A stretch of DNA of 64,000 bases, taken from NCBI GenBank assembly GCA_016748015.1, contig JAAOMT010000441.1, positions 100,204-164,203 on the forward strand. The letters are read 5' to 3'. A program made the translations under genes and the position numbers. This stretch comes from Geosiphon pyriformis (Eukaryota > Glomeromycota > Glomeromycetes > Archaeosporales > Geosiphonaceae). Every line of letters begins with the position of its first letter. Within the stretch, counting starts at the first letter, position 1. The notes beneath the pieces were generated by a model. The model saw only the letters and a program-made list of their open reading frames with translations, did not search any database and was not told where the DNA came from. This document shows, piece after piece, positions 30,698 to 51,248 of the stretch.

Positions 30698-31412
30698 AGT
30701 TCTTCGTTAGCTTTTCAAAAGTGAAACTTGGGAAGGGTCTGCTCGCGAAATTTCTTAGTGGACGCGTTCTCCACTATGTGAACTCATAATTTTATTGGAA
30801 GATTCCACGTGGTTTAAGTATGACGACACGTAGAGTTTTCCCAATTTACGCCATCCAGGCCAGGGATCCTGGTTCCGCATAATTCTGAAAGGAAGGGATT
30901 TCGCGAGGACCAAAATAAATGAGTATGTTTTTTATAAGATCTACATTGCGGGTGATTTACTATTTACAAACAAACAAACAAACGAGCAATCCAAACTTGT
31001 TGAAAACAACCTGGGCATTAATTTAGTTAAAATTTAAAAAGATCAAGCAAAATTATAATGCAAATTTTTGTATTAATTTTCATATTTCTTTATTTATAAA
31101 TTATATATATTTTTATTGTTTAATAAGTGTGATTCAATTATTATCTACTAAAATACAATAATAAATACTTTAAAATAAATATAACTTATATGTAACCAAT
31201 AAAATTATGTAAAAATTAAAATAATAACTAAAATTTTTTTTTAAATATTACCAAATTAATAGTATTCTTAAAAAACAGAAAAAATTAGCTTAATTTTTAA
31301 AATTAGATAATTTAATAATAAATTAGTTAAAATTACATATAAAAACATGGATTAATAGATTTGTAACAATCTCGGAAAAGCACGTGATTTAATATTGTGA
31401 CACGCGACTTTG
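30698..31412. other. Upstream region of the trihelix gene
   Basis: The first ~250 bp are moderately mixed and likely promoter sequence. A short caaa tetranucleotide run (about 30970-30985) follows. From about 31020 the sequence becomes very AT-rich with no coding stretch. Confidence 0.45.
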
Positions 31413-31487
31413 TTTGTTTCGTCGATCACTGCGCCGTATCTAGCACGTGTAACATGTGATATGTGGCGCAGTGATCGACGAAACAAA
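31413..31487. repeat. Perfect 23-bp GC-rich inverted repeat with 29-nt spacer
   Basis: The left arm 31413-31435 (starts tttgtttcgtcgatcac) and the right arm 31465-31487 (starts ggcgcagtgatcgacg) are perfect reverse complements. The spacer contains the imperfect palindrome cacgtgtaacatgtg. The arms are much richer in G and C than the surrounding A/T sequence. There is no coding potential. The palindrome could be a foldback/MITE remnant, a hairpin RNA or a protein-binding palindrome; I cannot tell which. Confidence 0.8.
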
Positions 31488-32135
31488 ATCTGTTTTAAAT
31501 TATGTAATATTAATTCTTTTTATTGGTTAAAAATAAATTATATATATTATATCACATGGTTTTTGAATTTAACATGTGTTATTTATATATTGTAATACAA
31601 AAACACATCAAAATTTTTGGTATAACTGCTTTTATTTTTGTACAATAAAAGTTTTTTTTGTTTTAAACAATGTCTAAATTATAAAAAAAACTTATATACT
31701 ATGAATATAAACATAAAAATTTGAGTATAAACTATAAATTCTAATGTATTAAAGACAACAGATTATGCAAAATTTAACTCTTTAAACTATTTTAAATAAT
31801 ATTTACTTGAATATATCAATTAGTAATATAGTTAATAGTATATTAGCAATTTTAAATATGATATTTTATATGTTATGTATTATATTAAAGTTAATATTTT
31901 GGTATAAATATAGAGCAAAAAAAAATAACCAGTTTATTTTTAAAAAAATATATATATATATGTTTAGTAAAAGACCATGTGTTAAAAAACTAAAATTATT
32001 TTTATTTTAATTTAGAACTTATTTCTAATATAAAACTAACTAATTAATTCTAAAATCATATTAGTGAAAACCTATTCCAATTAATTAACCAAGTGCCTAT
32101 AAATAAAGATAAAATCTTTGGTTAAAATTTCAATT
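31488..32135. other. AT-rich intergenic stretch before the Mutator-like locus
   Basis: Very AT-rich, with only chance frames (for example 31807-32010). It may contain the 5' terminal part of the Mutator-like element, but no terminal inverted repeat was found. Confidence 0.4.
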
Positions 32136-32473
32136 ATATTTAATATCAGATTTTTTTATATTTATTTAGCTGTAAAACTTTGCATTAGTTATGCTTTTGA
32201 AACATAAAAAAATGTCAATATAATTATAAAAACCTATAGTAAACAACAAGAATTTAAAGTTATCCAAAAGAAATTAGAATAATATTTAAACAGCAGCATT
32301 AAACATCACACTTTTGAATGCAAATTTAGCAGCCAATATAAACCAATAAAAAGATTAACATTTAAAATTATCAAAATATTAAATCAAAACATCAAAAATA
32401 TAATTAGCATATCAATGTCAACTGTATTAAAAACTTATACAAAATAACTCTTATTACTCTTAACAATACACAC

Positions 32474-33452
32474 TATTACCAGACAAAATTAGAGATATTG
32501 TTTAGCATGAAATTACTCTTATAACTCTTATCATTAATTAGCATATATTATTATTTCAAATCATCACTTATTACATTAGCAAAATGTCTGAAATTATCAT
32601 TTAACTAATAACCCAATTTGTATATAACACAAATGTAACCTAAGTACAATGATCAATTATGCAATACCCTGAAATATGTAACATTCAAAAGTTCACTGAA
32701 ATTTGTAGAAATTTGTCGAAATAATTGATAGTTCACTGAAATATCTAATAGTTCACAGAAATAACTTGTAGTTCACCGAAATGTATCTTTAGTTCAGCAA
32801 AATTGTAGAAAAGAGCAAAGTTCAAGTTCATAGAATAGTGTTACGACAAGTTGTATAAAAGAAGAGTTTTTCTCTTTGAGAAAATGTATCTTACTTTAGA
32901 TTTATTACTTAGAACCATTCCTATACACACAAAAAGAAATAAATATCAAATAATTCAAAAAACCAAATTCTTTAATTATTGCACTTGAAAAATCCTCAAA
33001 ACCCAACTAACGTTTTAAAATTGATTAGCTACCAATTTCAATAATCTGTTAATGACTCCAGGCCTGGATAGAAAAACATTTTCCTTGATAAAATCCTATT
33101 TCTTTTATATTTCTTTTATTTTTTTTTCTTTTCTTATTACAATCATTAAGGTAGCCTACAGACGAGATTCCTGTAGAAGAGTTGACTTTCACAGCAAAGT
33201 AACTACACATTTTTAGTGAGCTTTCAGACAAGCAATTCCTGGGAAAGAGTTGACGTTTACTACAACGTAACTATATAAAGTAACTGGCAAGGAATTGGCC
33301 ATTCTACTTATAAGCCCAGCAGTTCAAATTATAGGAGATAATTTGAAGATAAATTCAGTTACTGGAGGTTTAACCACATCCAAAAAACGTGAATTTACAG
33401 TAAACAAGCATCGACAACATTTAAAAAAAGAGACCAAAAACCTCTGGTAACA
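32474..33452 (+). mobile_element. Solo LTR 1 (979 bp) inside the MULE gene
   Basis: It begins tattaccag (ancestral tgttaccag) and ends ctggtaaca, an inverted terminal pair of LTR type. It is flanked by ACAC on both sides (32470-32473 and 33453-33456), as expected for a 4-bp target duplication. It aligns along its whole length with 38272-39237. Inside are several imperfect copies of tagttcac(t/c)gaaat at 32687-32800 and a TATA-like tataaaa at 32854-32860, which favours plus orientation. No internal coding region is attached, since MULE sequence resumes directly, so it is a solo LTR from recombination. Confidence 0.8.
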
Positions 33453-33957
33453 ACACAATCATTCATTATATTTTAATACTAAAAAATATGTTTTAATATA
33501 TTGAAAATTTTCAGATAATATTCTTTAGAAAATCTAATTTTTCATAAAATATACAAATTTATTAATTACTATCCAAAAAAAATTATTAAAAGTAAAATTT
33601 CTAACAGCATCTATTCTTAATTGTGACTTTACAAATGCAATACAAAGATTTAAAATTCATAATAACAAAAAACACAATACATTTTGCTTGTTGACAACCC
33701 ATATAAATTGCAAATTAAATGATCTCAAATAGGTTATAAAGTTTAAAATTAATGAAAATTAGCTTATTTGTACATTTTAAATGTTTCTTGTACAAGTTGT
33801 TTTTTGGTTAGAGTACTATAATATTGTTTTAAATAACAATATAACAAAAACCAACTGTTATTAGATACCACTTTTTTTTTTCTTATTGTAAATAATAATA
33901 TAAAATTCTGCTTTATTGTACAAGTTTTTGTATTAAATAAAACTACTAAATCATATA

Positions 33958-33980
33958 CAGTGAACTCTTTTTATAATCAC
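33958..33980 (+). repeat. Left terminal inverted repeat of the Tigger-like element
   Basis: Starts cagtgaactctttttataa. It is preceded by the TA target duplicate and pairs with 38197-38219 with three mismatches (two transitions and one transversion). Confidence 0.85.
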
Positions 33981-34112
33981 ATCTTTTAGTCAGCACATTT
34001 GTGGTAACTATAGAGAGATAAAACTATAAAAAAATAATTAATATCTTATCACATAATCTATATATTATATGCATAATATAATAACTAATTATATATATTT
34101 TATTTAAAAAAG

Positions 34113-35657
34113 CTATCTATTTGCAATTGTTTTTTTTTTTTGAACTTTGAGAACAGTATTATGAATTAATGTTCTCAAAGTTTTAAAAAAGTTTGAATCA
34201 ACTTTTTTACTATACTGCTCTTCACAATAGCACAATGTATTTTCAAGTGCAGTTTTACCTTGATGTATAGATAGCAAAGGCAAAGATTTATTTTCATCTT
34301 CACTTTCTAAATCTTCATTTGCATTAGAATTTCTACTATATTTGTTGTTAATAAGATCCACAATTTTATTTTCTAAGGCATAAGTAAATAATGGTTCAAA
34401 CTTGTCAATATTAATGAAGTCTATTGCTAATAGCTTGTTAATATCAACATGCTCAATAAAAATTTGTATTTTTTGTAGGAGTTCTTGTTCAATATCTAAT
34501 AAATGGGCTAGTATTTGACTATTATTCAGAATTCTTGTATAATATCAACAGTTTTGGATTGTAATTATTGTTACCATTGATCACACATCAATTAGAAAGT
34601 CAACTGCATTTTTTAATGTTACTATTGATATTGAAATCTTGTCATTATACTGATTAATAAGATGAAAAAGAAACAACTTTTGGTATTGTGTCTTAAAGGA
34701 TACAATAATTCCTGTATTTAATGGTTGCAAATGAGATGTTGTATTGGATGATAGGTATTTAATCATAATATTAGATAATACAAAAGGTTCTCTATTATAA
34801 GAATTAGCATTATCAAGCAATAACAAAATCTTTTTTTTCTTGTGATGCATTTTTTCATTTAATAAATTAAGCCATTCACTAAAAATATCAGTTCACATCT
34901 ATGCTTTTGTATTGTAATAATAAGTAATTAGAAGTGCATTTATATTAATATTGCAAAAACATCATGGTTTTGTGGCTTTGCCGATAATTAAAGACTGCAA
35001 TTTGATGCTGTCTATTGTATTACAAGCAAAAAATATGGTAATTTGACTCTTATTACACTTGGTGCCAGAAGTAGATTTTGTTGCCAAAGTTGCATTTGGT
35101 GGCATTCTAAAGAATAATTCTGTTTTATTGGCATTGTAAACATTATTTAGATCATATTTGCTGATAATCTCACACAGTTTCTTTTGTTCTTCTGGTAAAA
35201 TTTCCAAGAGGACACTGTTTGCTTCACCATGTATCTTAATGTGGTGCAAATTATGACATTTCTTGAATCTTTTTAACCAATTATCTGATGCTTTAAAGTT
35301 ATTTTCTTCCTAAAACTTTTCAGCAAACTTGAGGACTTTCATTTGTAAAATTTTTCCAATAAGAATACAGTTGGTAGCTAGTGCTTCAAGCATCCATTTT
35401 TTCAGTACATTATTTATTTTTGAAAACATCTTTTTCCTGTTTTTTGTCAATTGACCAGAATTGTTAGATACATTCTTTTCAATCTATTAGTCTGATTTCA
35501 CAAGTATCTTTGTTACAGTGAAGTGGTCAATTTTTAGATTAAATATTTTAATAAATCTATTTGCTAAGTAGTCAGAATGCTTTAGTTTGTACTGGCAGAG
35601 AGCTTTTTTAGTCTCCAAGGAGATTGCTACTTGTTTTTGGTTCGTGTTTTTTGACAT
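34113..35657 (-). pseudogene. Tigger/CENP-B-like transposase, single frame with seven stops
   Basis: Cut-and-paste DDE transposase of about 514 codons. Everything from ATG 35657 to TAG 34113 is in one frame, with seven internal stops and no frameshift. The N-terminal psq-type helix-turn-helix (ISLETKKALCQYKLKHSDYL) is followed by a CENP-B/Tc5-type helix-turn-helix (NWLKRFKKCHNLHHIKIHGE). The DDE core has the first Asp replaced (VYNANKTELFF, family form NADET). The second is intact (LLLLDNANSY). The third is replaced (LQPLNTGIIVSF, family form PLDAGI). The replacements and most stops fit C-to-T or G-to-A changes such as TGG to TGA/TAG, CGA to TGA and GAT to AAT. It is catalytically dead. Confidence 0.85.
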
Positions 35658-36261
35658 GTTAATAAGAACACACTTTTTATTGCATTTTGCTTTTATAATG
35701 CATTAATATATCTGTTATGTCTCAAACGTCATTTTGCCTTATATCTAATCAAACATGTAAGGTGTTTCATGGCATATGAAGTGCTTTAGATTATAAAAAG
35801 CAGCCAAATTATAAAAATGAAGGTTTTAATCCAACTGTAGGATTTTAAGTACAAATAACAGATTCTCAGTAAAAAAAACCTAATTTTGATAATGCATTTG
35901 CAACACTTTTTGTCTCTTACCTCTAACTGATAATCAATAATGAAAGCTGTTAATTTGATTCTCCACATACTTGTATAATCATGTAGAAAATAGTACAATG
36001 TCATGTTGTCAAGCTCTTCAAATACAACAATGCCTATATTAATTGGAATATTGATATAAAATACTTTGCACAATGTCAGGGATATCAGAGTGAAAGTCAA
36101 CTGCAGTTTTTTAAAAAATGTCTTGATCATCATAAGTCATGTGATTCGATATGTAATATATATAGGCATGCAATGGCTTCTGAATTAATGTATATGTTGT
36201 TTCTAAGAAAAATCTATCTGTTAAAAGTTACTTAGAATGGGCCCAAAATAAAACAGATCCC

Positions 36262-36963
36262 ATGTTCAAGTTAAAGTATGAACAAGTCTTTTTTTATTTA
36301 CAAGCAATTATTAACTTTCGCACTAGAGTTCATTTCAATAGGTTTTCATTAAGACTCATGGCTAGACAAATGTTTGCACCAATTTGGTCTGCTTGGCACT
36401 ATTCTATTTACCAATTAATTGAAATTGCTAATGAAAAACAATGGCTATAGTTAAAATCTAAAGTTTGCAAGCTGATTCAAGAAAAAATTGTAATTTCTCA
36501 ATCTAAACTTTCAAATCAACATCAAGGTCATGATGCAATACTTGAAGAAATTAACAAAATGCTCAAATTATTGATTCCTTCTATACCTTCACAACAGCAT
36601 TGGGAAATTGCAGTGTGTAACTGTATCAAATTTAAGAGATTGCATATTAACCTCTTTAATGTCATTAGATATTCTAAAAGTGAAATATACAGGTCTTGTA
36701 TATGTCCTAGCTTTATTGCTGAATTAAATTAATTTTGAGTTCAGATAAGAAAGACACAGTTTGTAAATCCAAATGTCTTTAATCATGTTTTTTGTGATAT
36801 TGGTTATAAATAGATATTAAGTAAAAAAATAAAAAAATTTAGTAAAATTGCACAGATGAAAAGAATAAACTTTCTTAAAGCAAGGCAAATTAAGAAAACA
36901 TTGTTAGGTACTTCGAAACCAATTCCAGTAACAAGTAAAGAAGCAGATTATCAAAAAATGTAA
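36262..36963 (+). pseudogene. Unidentified second ORF of the Tigger-like element
   Basis: One plus-strand frame of 234 codons from ATG 36262 to TAA 36961-36963, interrupted by four stops and no frameshift. The protein-like sequence contains YEQVFFYLQAIINF, RQMFAPIWSAWHYSIYQLIE, SNQHQGHDAILEEINKMLK and KTQFVNPNVFNHVFCDIGY. I recognise no named domain. It resembles uncharacterised proteins I associate with arbuscular mycorrhizal fungi; that is memory, not a search. It runs convergent to the transposase and inside the same inverted repeats. It could be an accessory transposition protein or a captured host gene, and no function can be assigned. Confidence 0.6.
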
Positions 36964-37443
36964 ATTTGTTAATAAAATCACAACTATTATCTATTATTAA
37001 CTCTTTAATACCTCTTTTAAGTGATCATGTTTTTGAATCTTATCAAGTTAATTGTGTAACAGCCTAATAAATATCCTTCAAGAAGTTAGAAATATATTGT
37101 ATTGTGTACAGTTTTGTTTACATTGAGTTGGATGCATTATCATTTATAATTGGCATTTTTAAAACATGATATGTTGAGTCTAGGTCCAAATCTCTATTCT
37201 GCGTGATTATGTTTGGATTATGAAAAGCATTTAACACAAATTTATTTGCCCCAAAAAAGTTAATTTTTAATACATTTTTAAAACTATCAGTCAAACTTTT
37301 GTTTGCTAATACTAAATATTGGCCAAATAATAAATATGATTGCTAGTATGGAGCTCTTTTTTAATCACAGATGCCAAAGTTGATGTGAAAATATATTTAT
37401 TGGGTATATATCAGAATCTTCATGCTCTGAGTTTTATTACTGG

Positions 37444-37944
37444 TCATATTTCTCTTTCTAAGGAAAAATAAATTTGAACTCTGTTCCTAGTTGATTTGCT
37501 TGAGCAATGTTTCATTAACAAACTTGTTCTCAAAGGATCCCATTGGACCATTATTTTCACTTGTAGATCTGTTAATTTTTTCTCCCAATACAGAGAAAAA
37601 GTAATCTTATTAGCCAAAGTTTGATCCAGAGTAACTTCATTGATACCCACAGCAACAGCCTCCAAAGCACTACCAACCTCTAAAGCATTACCAGTCTCCA
37701 AAGCACCAAGAGCAGCAATACTGTACCATATGTCAACTATTATTAAAATTCTTATAATATCTATAAACAACAAGCCAAATATAATAATTCTATTATTATT
37801 TTCTGATGGTGGTGGTGGCTTATAAAGAAGAAGAGTAATTAAATGTTGTAATATTTTAAAAATTTTGTTTAGTATTCTACAATCATTTCCAAAAACTTCT
37901 TTAATTTTTTTTACTACCATAAAAAAAATGATTTCCATTGACAA
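37444..37944 (-). CDS. Hypothetical 166-codon frame in the right part of the Tigger-like element
   Basis: Open without interruption, unlike the other frames of the element. It contains hydrophobic stretches (RIIIFGLLFIDIIRILIIV) and a repetitive ALExG segment (GALETGNALEVGSALEAVAV). The C-terminal part (ITFSLYWEKKLTDLQVKIMV) looks protein-like, but no family is recognised. It may be a remnant of a third element gene or chance. Confidence 0.25.
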   Translation of the reverse strand: MSMEIIFFMVVKKIKEVFGNDCRILNKIFKILQHLITLLLYKPPPPSENNNRIIIFGLLFIDIIRILIIVDIWYSIAALGALETGNALEVGSALEAVAVGINEVTLDQTLANKITFSLYWEKKLTDLQVKIMVQWDPLRTSLLMKHCSSKSTRNRVQIYFSLEREI

Positions 37945-38196
37945 ATTGGGAAATCTTTCTGACTGTATATGTCCAATTAAATATGAAATGACATTTAATG
38001 TTTATATCTAATATTATATGATTATAGTGTGACTATAGAAAGTGTAAATTACTTATATTCTGCTATCATATTTATGAGAATAGGGACTATAAGAAAATAT
38101 ATATAATAAAAGTGATTATAAGAAGATAATATTATATATAAATGGTTTTGGTTTTTAAAAAAATGTGATTATAAGAAGATAGTAACTATAACCAAA

Positions 38197-38219
38197 GAGA
38201 CTATAAAGAGAGTTCACTG
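38197..38219 (-). repeat. Right terminal inverted repeat of the Tigger-like element
   Basis: Ends gagagttcactg and is followed by TA. It is the complement of the left terminus, with three mismatches. Several gattataagaaga copies lie within 130 bp internal to it. Confidence 0.85.
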
Positions 38220-38271
38220 TAAATAGATTCTAAAATGCACAAAAAAGCAACAATAACAGAATTATTAGTAT

Positions 38272-39237
38272 TGTTATCAGTAAAGTTTTAATTATAACTA
38301 ACATAAAATTACTCTTATAATTCTTATCATTAATTAACATATATTATTATTATTTTAATTATTACTTATTATTTAATCAAATTATTAAATATTATTATTT
38401 AATAAATAACTTAATTGTACTATAGAATTAAGATAATTAAATTACATAATACTTTAAACTATTTTAACATTCAACAATTTGCCAAAATTTATAGAAATTT
38501 ACTAAAATAATTAATAGTTTGTAGAAATAACTTGTAGTTTATCAAAATGTATTTTTAGTTTATTAAAACAATAGCAAAGAAAAAAGTACAAGTTCAAAGA
38601 CTAGTACTATAACAAATTGTATAAAAAAAAGCTTTTCTCTTTAAAAAAATATATTTTACTATAAATATTTTACTTTAGATATCTTAATTAAAATTAATCA
38701 TCTCTTATACATCTTTACAAAATTAAATAAAAATTAAATATTTAAAAACCCAAAATCTTTAATAATTATATTTGAAATTTCCAAAACATAACTAATATTT
38801 TAAAATTAATTAACTATTAATTTCAATAATCTGTTAGTAATTTCAGATCTGGATAGAAAATATTTCCCTTGACAAAATTCTATTTCTTTTACATTTCTTT
38901 TATTTTCTTCCTTTTATTTTATTATAATTATTAAGATAGTCTATAAATGAGATTCTTGTAAAAAAGTTGATTTTTACAACAAAGTAACTACATATTTTTA
39001 GTGAGCTTTTAGATAAATAATTCCTGAAAAAAAGTTGATATTTACTACAATATAACTATACAAAGTAACTGGCACAGAATTGGCTATTCTATTTATAAGC
39101 TTAGCAGTTTAAATTATAAGAGATAATTTGAAAATAAATTCAGTTATTAAAGATTCACTAGCTTTTAAAAAATATGAATTAACAGTAAACAGATATTAAC
39201 AACATTCAAAAAAAGAGACCAAAAACTTTTAGTAACA
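38272..39237 (+). mobile_element. Solo LTR 2 (966 bp) inside the MULE gene
   Basis: Same family as solo LTR 1. It starts tgttatcag and ends gtaaca, with collinear similarity throughout (for example ttaattaacatatattatt against the matching segment near 32530, and agagaccaaaaac near both 3' ends). The flanks gtat and gtgt are a 4-bp target duplication with one transition. Keeping one copy restores the MULE frame as ELLVFITNAN. This copy is more AT-rich than LTR 1, with many C-to-T differences. The independent target duplications argue that the two LTRs are separate insertions rather than one element's pair. Confidence 0.78.
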
Positions 39238-39889
39238 GTGTTTATTACTAATGCTAATTCTACAACAGATGTATCAGTTGCTTAAATATACAAAACAACT
39301 TACCAAATTTATTATATTTTTTATATTAATAAAAACTTAACAAGAAATTTTAAGTCAAAGCTTTACAATCAATATAAAAGCTTTGTTCACAATTTTTTTC
39401 TATGTTACAATAGTTTATATAAAGAAGATTTCTATAAATAATAATTACAATTTACTAAAACATGTTAATATTAAAGATTATCTAATAAAAGTTTTTTATT
39501 TTAGCTAATAAACATAGATCTGTGTATTTATATCAAAAATATTTACTGCAAAAATTCAAACTACCTCTTATATTAAAGGTTTAAAAATATTATTAAATAC
39601 ATATTTTTAGTAAATAACAGTTTATATAATTTTGCTGATATATTAAATGCAAAACTTAAAAGTAAAACAGAATAAAATTGTTTTTTTGAATATTGTATAC
39701 TTATTTTGTATAAAAATTATGTTAATTGGTCATAATTTTTTTTCTAAGATCAATAAACAAATAACTTAATATTTTATGTTTTATATTTTATCTATAAACC
39801 ATTTAAAAATGACATAATGCCTATATTTTATTGTGAATTAATATCATTAAATATTAATAATTATAATAAGATAATAGAATTTATTTTCT

Positions 39890-40405
39890 AGTGTATTTTT
39901 TTAAGTCATTTATTTAACAATATTTTAATATTTAAGATTCTAGTCCTAATATAATAAGTAATTTTATTGAGAATTTGTATAGTCAGTACTTTTGAACTTT
40001 TAAGTATTTGATCTAAATTTCCTTTAGTAAAAGCATTATCTTTATTATAATCAAAGCTGGTTTCTTTAACCAAATACTTTTTTTTCATATCTATACTATC
40101 AGACTTGATGATATTACCAGTCTTAGAATTCTATGAACAATTACTTAACTCCTTAGCAGAAATTTTTCTATCATTAATATTATCTTCCAAAGCACCACCC
40201 CTTCTTTTTTTTCTAAATACAACAGACTTAATACCAGTATTAAAACCAAAATCTTTTTTATAACAACAATGCTAGAGCCAATAGTGGCCTTATAATCGAA
40301 CAAAACCAGTTTTGATTTATTATATTGAATAGTAAAAACTTCTTTTTCAAAAAACTTTTTAACTCTTTTTTGGAAATTTGAAATGAAAAAGAAAAAAAAG
40401 TTTTT
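39890..40405 (-). mobile_element. 5'-only LINE fragment
   Basis: Read on the minus strand, it has the LINE 5' leader and the N-terminal part of ORF1: the frame 40088-39906 (MKKKYLVKETSFDYNKDNAF) matches MEEKCLVEETSVDYGENGAF of copy C. The upstream leader (cttctttttcaaaaaactt and onward) matches 49490-49560. Everything 3' of it is missing and MULE sequence abuts. LINE insertions normally lose their 5' end, so a 5'-only piece implies a later deletion or insertion. Confidence 0.7.
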
Positions 40406-42504
40406 TTTAATTTTTTTTCCTAAATTTTTATATTATTATTAATAATTTTAAAATTTAAATTAAATTGTTATATTGTTTTAAATAATTGATATTAAAATTA
40501 AAAAATGTTTTTTAAAATATTTATTTTATTGTTTTTTTATTTTTTTAGTAATTATAATAATGTTTATATATTTATTAATTTTGTTAATTAATTTTTATAT
40601 TTGTATTTAATAATAATAATTAATTTTAAATTTTATAAAATATTTTTAAATCCAATTAATAAAATTTATATACTTAAGTAAAGTAATTATAATATTAATA
40701 ATAATTTTTAAATATAATATAATTTTAACCAATTTTTATGTATTGTTTTTTTAAAAATTTTGTTTTTTAATTATAATTTATATGCTTTATTTTTTATTAT
40801 TTTATTTTGAATTAAATTTTTTATCTTACTGTTTTTTGGTTTTAATACAATATAATAAAAATTTTATTTTTAATTTTAAATTTAATTGGTTATTTAAATA
40901 AATAATTATGATGTTTTTTTGTTGTTTTTGTAAATATTTAATATTATTAACTAAAATTTTTTAATTGTTTTTATCAATTAATACATTTTTTTAACAAAGT
41001 AATTTTAAAATTATTTTCTCTTTTTTTAATAAATTGTTTTATTTTGTATAATATTTTTTGTTAAATATTTGTTTGAAGTTATTTAAATAAAAATTTTAAA
41101 TATTAATTGTTATTTTAAGTAAAAATAACAATAAATTAATAAAAATTGTTTTTTTAACTTTTTTAATTATTAATAATATATTATTAAAAGTTTTTATACT
41201 TTTTTGTTTTACATAATTATTTAATTCTTTAATATTTTATATATAAAATTATCTTAGTTTTTCTTATTAATTGTTTTTTTTAAGTGTTTTTATAATAAAT
41301 TTTATTATTATTAATAATTATTTTTATTAAAACAGATATTAAATATTATTTGTAATTTTTATTTTGTTTGTTTTTTATTATTATATATTATTAATATTTA
41401 TATATTTTTTTGTTTAATTTTAAATTTTATTTAGTTTGACTATTTATATTATAAATAATAATAATAATAATTTAATATAATATAGTTTTAATTAAATATT
41501 ATATATTGTTTTTTTTTAAATATTTGTTTTTTAAATACAATTTATATGCTTTATTTTTAAGTATTTAGTAAATATATTATATTTAAGATTAAATTTTTTA
41601 TTTTATTATTTTTTGGTTTTAATATAATATAATAATATTTTGTCTTTAATTTTGTTTATTTGGTAATCTATTATTGTGTTTTTTTTCACTTTTTTTGTAA
41701 AGTTTTAATGTTATTAATTGTTAATTTTTATTTATTTTTAAAATTTTTATTAAATTATATGTTTATTTTAATAAGATTTTTAAAAATATAACTTTTATTA
41801 TTAATTTAATTAAATATATTACTATTTAATTTTAATTAATAATATTACTATTTTTATATACATTAATTTAAATAATATTATTTATATTATATTATATTTT
41901 GTTTTATTGTTTAATAAATAAATAATATTAATAAATAAATAAATAAATAAATATTATTATTTTTAATTTTTTTGGCTAATTTTAATTAATGTTTTATATA
42001 ATATTTTATTAATTTTTTAACTAAAATATTTGTTTTTAAATAATATAATAATAAGCTTTTTACTTTAAAATTTTAACTTATTTGGTTAATATACTGTTTA
42101 TAAAATAAGTTTTATAGTTTAATAATAATTTTTTCTTAAATATATATATTAATATATTAAGTTTTATAAAATAAATTTAGTTATTAATTTGGTGTTAATT
42201 TTTTAAATTATTCTAATTTTTAGTTATTTAGTTAAATAATTCATATTTACTACTATGTATTTGTAATTTTAATAATTATTAATAATAGTTTAATTAAATT
42301 AATTCTAATTTTATTAAATAACTGTTTAATTTTGATTGGTTTGATTTATAATTTTATATATATTAAATAATATTTCGACATAATATTAATCAAAAATAAA
42401 GTTTTTTGGTTTGTATTATTGTTGTTTCTTAATAAAAATATTTAATAGTAAAATTAAAGTATATATTAAATATAATTATTTTCTTTTTTTGTTTTTTAAT
42501 TATT
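40406..42504. other. A/T-only block
   Basis: About 2.1 kb of nearly pure A and T with scattered G. No coding frame. Since a LINE 3' end follows immediately at 42505 in plus orientation, this is probably the decayed body of that LINE, but the body itself cannot be aligned by eye. Confidence 0.45.
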
Positions 42505-47629: not shown

Positions 47630-49425
47630 TGGGAGGGGGATTGGAAGTTTGCACCACCAGCCAAAGCCAGACTATCGAAACGAGCGGACAAGATCAACAC
47701 AGATTTGGAGAGGCCCTCCAACATATTTTCCAACTTGACAACATGGGGGGACGTGGATGAGTCCACAATCGTGGCAGACTCATGGCCATCAGCCATACTC
47801 AAGTCCATATCCAATGTCACATTACTTTCCGAATTCTGTGGTGTGGCGACCACTGGCAGCCAGCATCTGTGACCAGGCTGGGGAACCACCAGCACAAGCA
47901 AATCTAACCTCTTGGCCAACCCATCAATTTGTTTTGCAAGACTAACAAGACTATCCTCGATACTGACCAGTCTTTTTTCCAGATCTTTTGCAACAGAAGG
48001 GGTAGGTTTACCATCGACGATGGAACCAGAACTTGCCTTACCACCAGAGAGAGAGGGAGCAGAAGGAGCACTAACCACCAATGCCCAAGTTTTACCACCA
48101 AAAGCCAAAGGACGAGAGATAGGCGCAGATCTCCTTGCATAAATTTTCGCCAATCTGAATTGGTCTTGAACCGAAAAGAGAGCCTTTCTGTCTCCTGCAA
48201 TTTCAGCACCCTTGACTGTTCTGCAACCAAGAGAAGTATGACCAAATTTCTCACAAACTGCACATGAAGCTAAAGAAAGACAGGACCAATGGAGACCAAA
48301 GCTCTTTATAACTGGAGTCGTTGCCATTGCATTACCTAATTCCACTTCCGAGCTAAAACACACAGTGGCACAGCGGGCGCGAGAATAACTGATGGGATTG
48401 CGATTGATGAAGCAGGTTTTCTCACCAATAGAACCAATAAAATCCCACAAATCATGAGCAGTAGTTCCCATGGGAAGAGTATATAGCAAAGCCCTAAACT
48501 TATCCCTGGCATCCCACAATTGTTTGTCGATATCAGCCTTGGCCACTCGAATCGCGTCCTTCCCAATAAAGATAGACCACTTAGAGGCCAGAAAATCAGC
48601 CTGGTCTTGATTTTCCAATTCGATGATCGCCTTTTGCCATAAACCCACCAGCTGCATTTTGATCAACTTAATGATGCCAAATTCGGTTACAGCCGCATGC
48701 ACAGCCTTCAAAGAAGTTCTCACAGGAATTTCTTTCAGCACAATTGCTCAATTTGTATGATTGTTTACAGAGCGCTTGAGATCGGTGTTTACCACAACAC
48801 CACGGTCATTAGCCAGATTAGCTGCAGTCATCATCGCCTCTTCAGAAGTGAAAGTAGCCCGAATGATTCCACTAAATTTTGAGGGAGTAGAGGCCCCCCC
48901 AAAACCATTTACACCTGAAAAGATTTTTCTGACAAAATTGACTTTTTCCTAAGAGGATTTACCCACTACTGCCACCAGATCAATATCCAAAGTGAAGGAC
49001 TTGCGAACAGGCACCTGAACGGACGGCTTGACTGGAAAAGGAGGTGGTAGAAGAAAAGACTCATCCAACACATCACCATTCGCATCGACAGTACCATAAT
49101 CAATCACACCCAAAGGCTTTTCTAACACCTTCTTGGTCTTTACATGCAAACTCTTAGGCGTTTGATCAGGATCCTCTCCTGTGAAAGCACCATTTTCACC
49201 ATAGTCAACACTGGTTTCCTCAACCAAGCACTTCTCCTCCATGTCAATACTCTCAGATTCAGTAGTATCACCCACCTCAGAACCCCATGAACGATTACCA
49301 AGAGCTTTATCAGCAACCTTACTATTATCAATACTCTCTGCTAATACACCACCCTTTCTCTTCTTCCTCGATGCAACCATCTTAAAACCACCCTCAGAAC
49401 CAGAAACTTTGGTAGCTTTCTTCAT
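47626..49425 (-). pseudogene. LINE C ORF1: RRM-like domains and CCHC knuckle, two stops
   Basis: One frame of 600 codons with stops near 48947 and 48744. It has a basic N-terminus (ASRKKRKGGVLAES), an acidic Ser/Glu region, VNGFGGASTPSKFSGIIRA, and an RRM-like unit (FGIIKLIKMQLVGLWQKAI). A second RRM-like unit follows (KFRALLYTLPMGTTAHDL, CATVCFSSEVELGNA). The zinc knuckle CAVCEKFGHTSLGC is intact, followed by a C-terminal helical stretch. It ends CAATGA; the ORF2 ATG shares these bases. Confidence 0.82.
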
Positions 49426-49566
49426 AACAGCAATAACAGAGCCAACAGTGGCCTCGTAATCGAAAAACAGTTTTAATTTATCGTACTGAATGGTAAAAAA
49501 CTTCTTTTAAAAAAAACTTTTGACTCTTTTTTGGGAATTTTGGATGAAGGAAAGAAAGAAGTTTTT

Positions 49567-51248
49567 TTATCCAGATTTTAAAAAAACATTTTGTGCATAA
49601 AAACAATTAATATATTATTATTTATAATATATTATTTATTTGGCAGTTTTATTTGTATTTAATTTAATATTAAATGTTTAATATTTTTAGAAAGCTATTA
49701 ATTAAACAAATATATTTTTATTAATATTAAAATTAGAAATATTTATATTATTATTCTTAAGTTTATAAAATATTATTATGTTGAAATATTAAAGTGGTTA
49801 AAATTTCAAATATATATATATAAACAATTATTTTGATTTAAATTTTGGTTTAATTGTTTTTGATTTTTAAAAACATATTTTAAAAATATTAATAAAATTA
49901 AAAAATTATTATTGTAATTAAAAACTAGATTAAATTAAATAAATTATTAAAAACTTTATTATTAAATTTATCAATTGCTTTAATAACATTGATATTATTT
50001 CCAAAATTTTGTTTTTTTATTATTATTATTGGATTTTTCATATTATTATCAAATATTTTAATTTTAATTTTATTACAATTAAAATTATTAACTTTTTTAT
50101 ACACTTACAATTATTAACACTTTTATTAACTAATAAACCTTAATCATATTAATTAAATTTGAAATTTACAATTTATTTTTTAAGGTTAATATTTTTCAAA
50201 CTGATTTTTTAACATAATCAATTTTTTACATTTAGTTAATTCTTATTTTTAGGTATTTATAATAATTTTATTAGCAATTATTATTGAGAAAGAAGGAAAA
50301 TAAGTTGTTTTTTGTTTTTTGACTGCAACTTTAGGCGAAATAAATATATAAATGATTTATGAAATCGGATTGCCAGTAACAATATTGTGTTATATTAGCA
50401 TTTAAAATTATGCTCTATTATTTTTCTTAAGTGAGCATAAATTCAAAAGAAAAATATTCATGGGGAGTTATATTTAAGGTGGCCTTAACTCAAAATCAAC
50501 CAGTTGTACTCATTTCTATTAAAACGGCCCTATACAGAATTACATTTGTTTATGTAGTATGAAAGTTTTTTAAAACTTTAGTTTTAATAAAATATTATGT
50601 TCGAGTTGTGTTATTTATTTTAATTATTAAAAAATAATCTAGTTTTTCTCATATCTTGGATCTTGAATATCACAAAAGCCCAATGATTAAATGAGATTTT
50701 TGGATGTAAGGGATATAGAAAACGAGGAAAAGTAGAGAAAGATAAAAAAGATGGGGTGATGCTTGGATGTTTATTTGAAATTTGATTAGGGTGCATGAAA
50801 ATGCTTTTTATTTCAACGGCGCAGTTTGAATAAAAGAGTGCTGTATCCTAAATACACGCTAATGTCTTGATGTAAATGAGCAGAAGCAAGTATAATGTAA
50901 AGTTATATAAAGAAAGACAAAATTTCTATGTACAAAATGCATAAAAGAATTAATGTGATTGAATATCTACGATCTCACCTCTTCGTCTCACCTTTGAGAA
51001 TAAAGGTTCCAAGTGGCGTGTAAGTTTGGCACATTTATGAAAACAATAAAGCTTGATGACGTCTTCCAGAAATTACATGAAATGTAAAATAAGAATAGTG
51101 TAAATAATTGATCTACAAGTAAGAAAGATTGGTATCGAACCATCGAAAATTTTCCGAAGCCATCGCTTGATTGTTCTTGGATTTTTTAATAATTTATTAG
51201 GAAATTAAATTAACTGATCATTGCTTTTTGTAGCTTGCCATTTAAGCA
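49567..51248. other. Intergenic: A/T-rich block, then the 3' flank of the WD40 gene
   Basis: 49567-50280 is nearly A/T only and adjoins the LINE C 5' end. 50280-51248 is more mixed and borders the DCAF7-like gene 3' end. No gene, RNA gene or repeat recognised in either part. Confidence 0.45.

Follow-up and report, generated by a model that had tools for sequence, protein, structure and literature searches.

The window analysed here is a stretch of 64,000 nucleotides of Geosiphon pyriformis DNA. It contains four segments of one Mutator-like element (MULE), separated by two solo long terminal repeats (LTRs) and a Tigger/pogo-type DNA transposon, each insert being bordered by its own target duplication (Table 1). 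The initial annotation had recognized the segments as one split transposase gene and had placed it at 32136-39875. The element actually starts with a terminal inverted repeat at 31349 and runs to 39981. The classes proposed for the inserts (solo LTR, Tigger-like element, solo LTR) hold, given paired-LTR relatives with gag for the LTRs and DDE_1 with HTH_Tnp_Tc5 for the element between them.

Table 1. Coordinates of the MULE, its inserts and their target duplications within the window.
Feature	Position	Strand	Evidence or remark
MULE fragment 1, left terminal inverted repeat beginning GGATTAATAGATTTGTAACAATCT at 31349	31349-32473	+	Adjoins fragment 2 in 17 relatives; terminus matches the inverse of the relatives' right ends
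Target duplication ACAC	left 32470-32473, right 33453-33456		Flanks solo LTR 1; 4-bp duplications also at the family's full-length relatives
Solo LTR 1, Ty3/Gypsy-type	32474-33452	+	LTR pairs enclose internal sequence at C138 and C96; Retrotrans_gag in relatives
MULE fragment 2, contains start of PF10551 region	33457-33957	+	
Target duplication TA	33956-33957 and 38220-38221		Flanks the Tigger/pogo-type element; single TA in relatives
Full-length Tigger/pogo-type element, 4.26 kb, ends CAGTGAACTC...GAGTTCACTG	33958-38219	-	Empty site in relatives
Broken transposase of the Tigger/pogo-type element	34113-35702	-	DDE_1 E 2.2e-28, HTH_Tnp_Tc5 E 5.4e-10
MULE fragment 3, 50 bp	38222-38271	+	One base shorter than relatives
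Target duplication GTAT (left), GTGT (right)	left 38268-38271, right 39238-39241		Flanks solo LTR 2
Solo LTR 2, more decayed relative of LTR 1	38272-39237	+	
MULE fragment 4, truncated	39242-39981	+	Relatives extend ~1 kb further
Different dispersed repeat, abuts the broken MULE end	39982-40420		776 first-look candidates; many matches begin at its first base

Relatives of the host element were sought in the 124.7-Mb assembly (406 contigs). The segment 33500-33950 has 40 genomic matches, and most of the long ones show 80-85% identity. In BLAST comparisons with the first relatives, window positions 31359-32478, 33453-33957, 38220-38272 and ~39240-39981 are contiguous in L003, L004, L006 and L009. 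The same four segments lie nearly end to end in L005 and L008, and further relatives agree. When scanned singly against Pfam, none of the window segments gave a significant match, so the MULE identity was read from the uninterrupted relatives instead. With stops read as X, these contain the MULE transposase domain PF10551 (L003, E 6.8e-9; L006, E 2.8e-8), and the match in L003 spans the region into which the Tigger-type element and LTR 2 inserted. A PF10551 profile search of the genome found 18 places, several of which were loci already known as MULE relatives. The window copy is assigned to the same family by homology to these relatives, which are 81-85% alike. The FAR1-type domain that had been suggested beside PF10551 did not appear: Pfam scans of the L003, L006 and L009 frames, again with X at stops, gave no match for a FAR1-type or zinc-finger DNA-binding domain. 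A zinc-knuckle-like CxxC pattern was seen by eye near the 3' end of MULE relatives.

The ends of the family are known from the relatives, in which the left terminal inverted repeat GGATTAATAGATTTGTAACAAYCT matches the inverse of the right one, GGATGAATCTAGTTGTAACAACCT. In the copy on C143 both ends are present ~3.4 kb apart and are flanked by an exact 9-bp target duplication, TTTAAATAT. Three other copies have weaker, partial and decayed target duplications. The 9-bp duplication is thus a property of the relatives, the right end of the window copy being lost. PF10551, terminal inverted repeats and a 9-bp duplication together place the family in the Mutator superfamily (MULE-MuDR), in which target duplications of 8-11 bp are expected. 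It differs from other members in that every examined copy is broken and the FAR1-type domain is missing from the Pfam results. Inside the MULE 5' region of the window, at 31413-31487, there is a near-perfect 75-bp palindrome (TTTGTTTCGTCGATCACTGCGCC...) that is shorter in L003 and L009 and missing in L005; a very small insertion or an array of hairpins could account for it.

The inserts were examined by an empty-site test. For each of them, 50+50 flanking bases were joined, one duplicate was removed and the product was aligned to 17 relatives in the same genome. Only these short flanks were joined, and the natural uninterrupted relatives took the place of a mended full-length gene. All three joined junctions align without a gap at the junction in 17/17 relatives (E 1e-32 to 8e-17), which excludes chance. 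The three duplications predicted from the window sequence (ACAC, TA and GTAT/GTGT) are present where they had been placed. Most relatives have GTGT at the third site, hence the window's GTAT arose later by a G>A change. The initial annotation had named native occurrence of the inserts in relatives as an observation that would speak against nesting, and none of the three was found in any of the 17. The inserts are therefore younger than the MULE and are not native sequence, and the proposed sequence of events, MULE first and the other three later, is borne out by relatives that run through all sites.

These results also bear on other ways of producing such a structure. Misjoins usually fall in repeats, and an assembly artefact that brought unrelated repeats together is very improbable, as a misjoin would not leave every complete insert flanked on both sides by target duplications of family-typical length, nor give the private mutations found in every element of the nest. 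It is still less probable that the four segments are unrelated pieces of several MULE copies joined by rearrangement. The abundance of repeats in the region and the truncation of the MULE at 39981 speak for such rearrangement, but the segments join base for base as in the 17 relatives and a duplication of the expected length surrounds each insert. Equally implausible is an origin of the inserts as introns, or as some other native component of the MULE family, since they are missing from every one of those relatives and each insert belongs to a separate high-copy family present elsewhere in the genome.

The two solo LTRs belong to related subfamilies and are 75% identical to each other. LTR 1 has 3426 first-look candidates in the genome and LTR 2 has 3917, the best of them at 84%. 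Full-length relatives of LTR 1 consist of two same-strand LTRs whose starts are ~8.9 kb apart (C138:130800-140660 and C96:179178-189053). They are flanked by 4-bp duplications (ATGT for the C138 copy, TTGG for the C96 copy), in agreement with the 4-bp duplications in the window. Within the 1.5 kb read beside the LTRs, relatives encode Retrotrans_gag (E 1.9e-13) and a Ty3-type capsid, Ty3_capsid (E 1.5e-7), and at the pol end there is a weak Tf2-1 SH3 match below the Pfam cut-off. Based on these three matches the family was assigned to Ty3/Gypsy. It shares with other Ty3/Gypsy retrotransposons the TG...CA form of the LTR and the Ty3-type gag of its relatives, and it differs in the 4-bp duplication and in having an additional open frame upstream of the 3' LTR. 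In Ty3/Gypsy elements a 5-bp target duplication is commoner than a 4-bp one. The additional frame (~239 aa, IPQNIQQLSQKLML...) lies between pol and the 3' LTR and is without a Pfam match (L062 784-1500, L055 784-1500). The same LTR family is also found close by in other MULE copies, at different points (L002, L007, L010).

The element between the two LTRs recurs as the same span of ~4.27 kb at several loci, which are 88-92% identical. With its DDE_1 domain, Tc5/CENP-B-type HTH and TA duplication it is a Tigger/pogo-type member of the Tc1-mariner superfamily. It departs from other Tigger/pogo elements in its length, with ~2 kb beyond the transposase that have no Pfam match. This part is kept in all copies, and the element has open stretches on both strands (36184-36732, 37444-38001). 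A second gene in the ~2 kb is possible.

The MULE was damaged by more than the three inserts. Five nearly full-length relatives were translated and stops are abundant in every frame; no undamaged relative turned up. The search for an uninterrupted copy yielded 17 relatives that are free of the inserts, and those examined for coding capacity are broken. The window copy lacks one base within 33457-33957 compared with L003 and another within 38222-38271 compared with the relatives. In-frame stops stand beside the junctions, for example in SYK*ILK, where several relatives share the position of the stop. It had been claimed that removing the inserts restores the reading frame at the three junctions. 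Each junction is indeed in the PF10551 frame of L003, but the two one-base deletions and the stops leave no single open frame over the whole gene.

The initial annotation made no mention of a truncation at 39981 against a fourth repeat. The window copy ends there while relatives continue, and a search of the window for the lost 3' end yielded nothing but low-complexity matches and a single unrelated repeat next to relative L021. Since the relatives extend ~1 kb further and this part was not found within the window, the right end of the MULE is lost. Judging from where its genomic matches begin, position 39982 looks like the dispersed repeat's own family boundary. This repeat (39982-40420) and a second window copy at 49181-49568, 71% alike, represent an unclassified high-copy repeat with no Pfam match. 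The adjoining 40421-42500 is AT-rich (~10% G+C) and self-similar, and in its internal alignments transversions outnumber transitions.

Taken together, these observations are best explained by a MULE, now dead, that was split by three independent later insertions and lost its 3' end, with the two Gypsy inserts reduced to solo LTRs. We give this account a probability of roughly 0.96. A Mutator-superfamily DNA transposon would have inserted at the locus and died. Three other mobile elements, two of them Ty3/Gypsy retrotransposons and one a Tigger/pogo-type DNA transposon, entered it independently, each leaving the target duplication now seen around it. Both Gypsy elements would have shrunk to solo LTRs through LTR-LTR recombination. 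The loss of the MULE 3' end against another repeat may have been a deletion, or a further insertion accompanied by loss. The sequence is most likely functionless now, a stack of dead elements.

The MULE predates all three inserts. The structure gives no order among the inserts, because they are not nested in one another. Measured against the family majority, the host MULE has diverged by 0.12-0.13, the Tigger-type element by 0.071-0.078 and LTR 1 by 0.055; LTR 2, the most decayed, is 84% identical to its best match. Sequence divergence suggests, with low confidence, that LTR 2 may have inserted before the Tigger-type element and LTR 1 last; confidence is low because C>T hypermutation is not clock-like and transversion counts are too small.

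As in other repeat-rich genomes, younger elements lie within an older one, each has its own target duplication and the relative order is read from the nesting. There is no difference in principle; what is seen here is three independent strikes on one 3.4-kb element. With 17 empty sites behind it, the nest illustrates cleanly how transposons can be dated relative to one another, and it shows that annotation segment by segment would overlook the MULE gene. Nested transposons of this kind are ordinary for a repeat-rich genome, and the transition-biased decay of the repeats is the more interesting lead.

Compared with its family majority, the window copy of the Tigger-type element has transitions and transversions in a ratio of 67:0 in the left part and 157:4 in the right part, mostly C>T/G>A. 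Within individual Gypsy elements, the paired LTRs differ by 60:2 and 39:0. The pattern was noted for the Tigger-type element, LTR 1 and the genomic relatives on C138 and C96. C>T changes occur whatever the context. Within the Tigger family, CpG sites are ~50% T and the other contexts 15-27%, TpC being more affected than ApC and GpC; most copies show no strand clustering of the changes. More diverged window repeats that keep longer reading frames have transition/transversion ratios of ~1.1 to 2.5, at a divergence where saturation is possible. The extreme transition bias is therefore not common to all repeats.

Repeat-induced point mutation (RIP) is a C>T bias that is confined to repeats and requires, during the sexual cycle, an enzyme of RID/DIM-2 type. 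In Neurospora it prefers CpA. What the repeats described here share with RIP is that nearly all differences between copies are transitions, C>T/G>A for the most part. They differ from it in that all C contexts are affected, CpG most and then TpC, and in the lack of strand clustering. Cytosine methyltransferase exons (PF00145) are present in the genome, at C318:788280, C96:423510 and C307:684535. The transition-dominated spectrum, as measured on repeats and one 18S locus, would fit either RIP or deamination of methyl-cytosine. Whether C>T hypermutation, RIP-like or driven by methylation, acts on the repeated DNA of this genome in every context is doubtful, and we put it forward as a tentative idea only. 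If true, such hypermutation would help explain the death of the MULE family and of the elements inserted in it. A 2025 survey described RIP-like enrichment in ascomycetes only (PMC12543289); a study of entomophthoralean fungi suggested, with caveats, that RIP occurs outside Dikarya (PMC11105155). These repeat families would be good material for testing this.

The sole 18S locus found in the genome (L082 on C320, 743-2559, minus strand) has 11 departures from 280 conserved Rfam columns in the part shown. Ten of these 11 are C>U or G>A, and they reach even the universal 530 loop. Judged by eye, the ribosomal DNA points to a fungus that may lie outside Dikarya. Rhizophagus was considered as the host and dropped, because the AML2 primer target that characterizes arbuscular mycorrhizal fungi has no exact match and the 18S locus has GTTTTTG there. 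By this comparison, the locus looks like a decayed rDNA copy.
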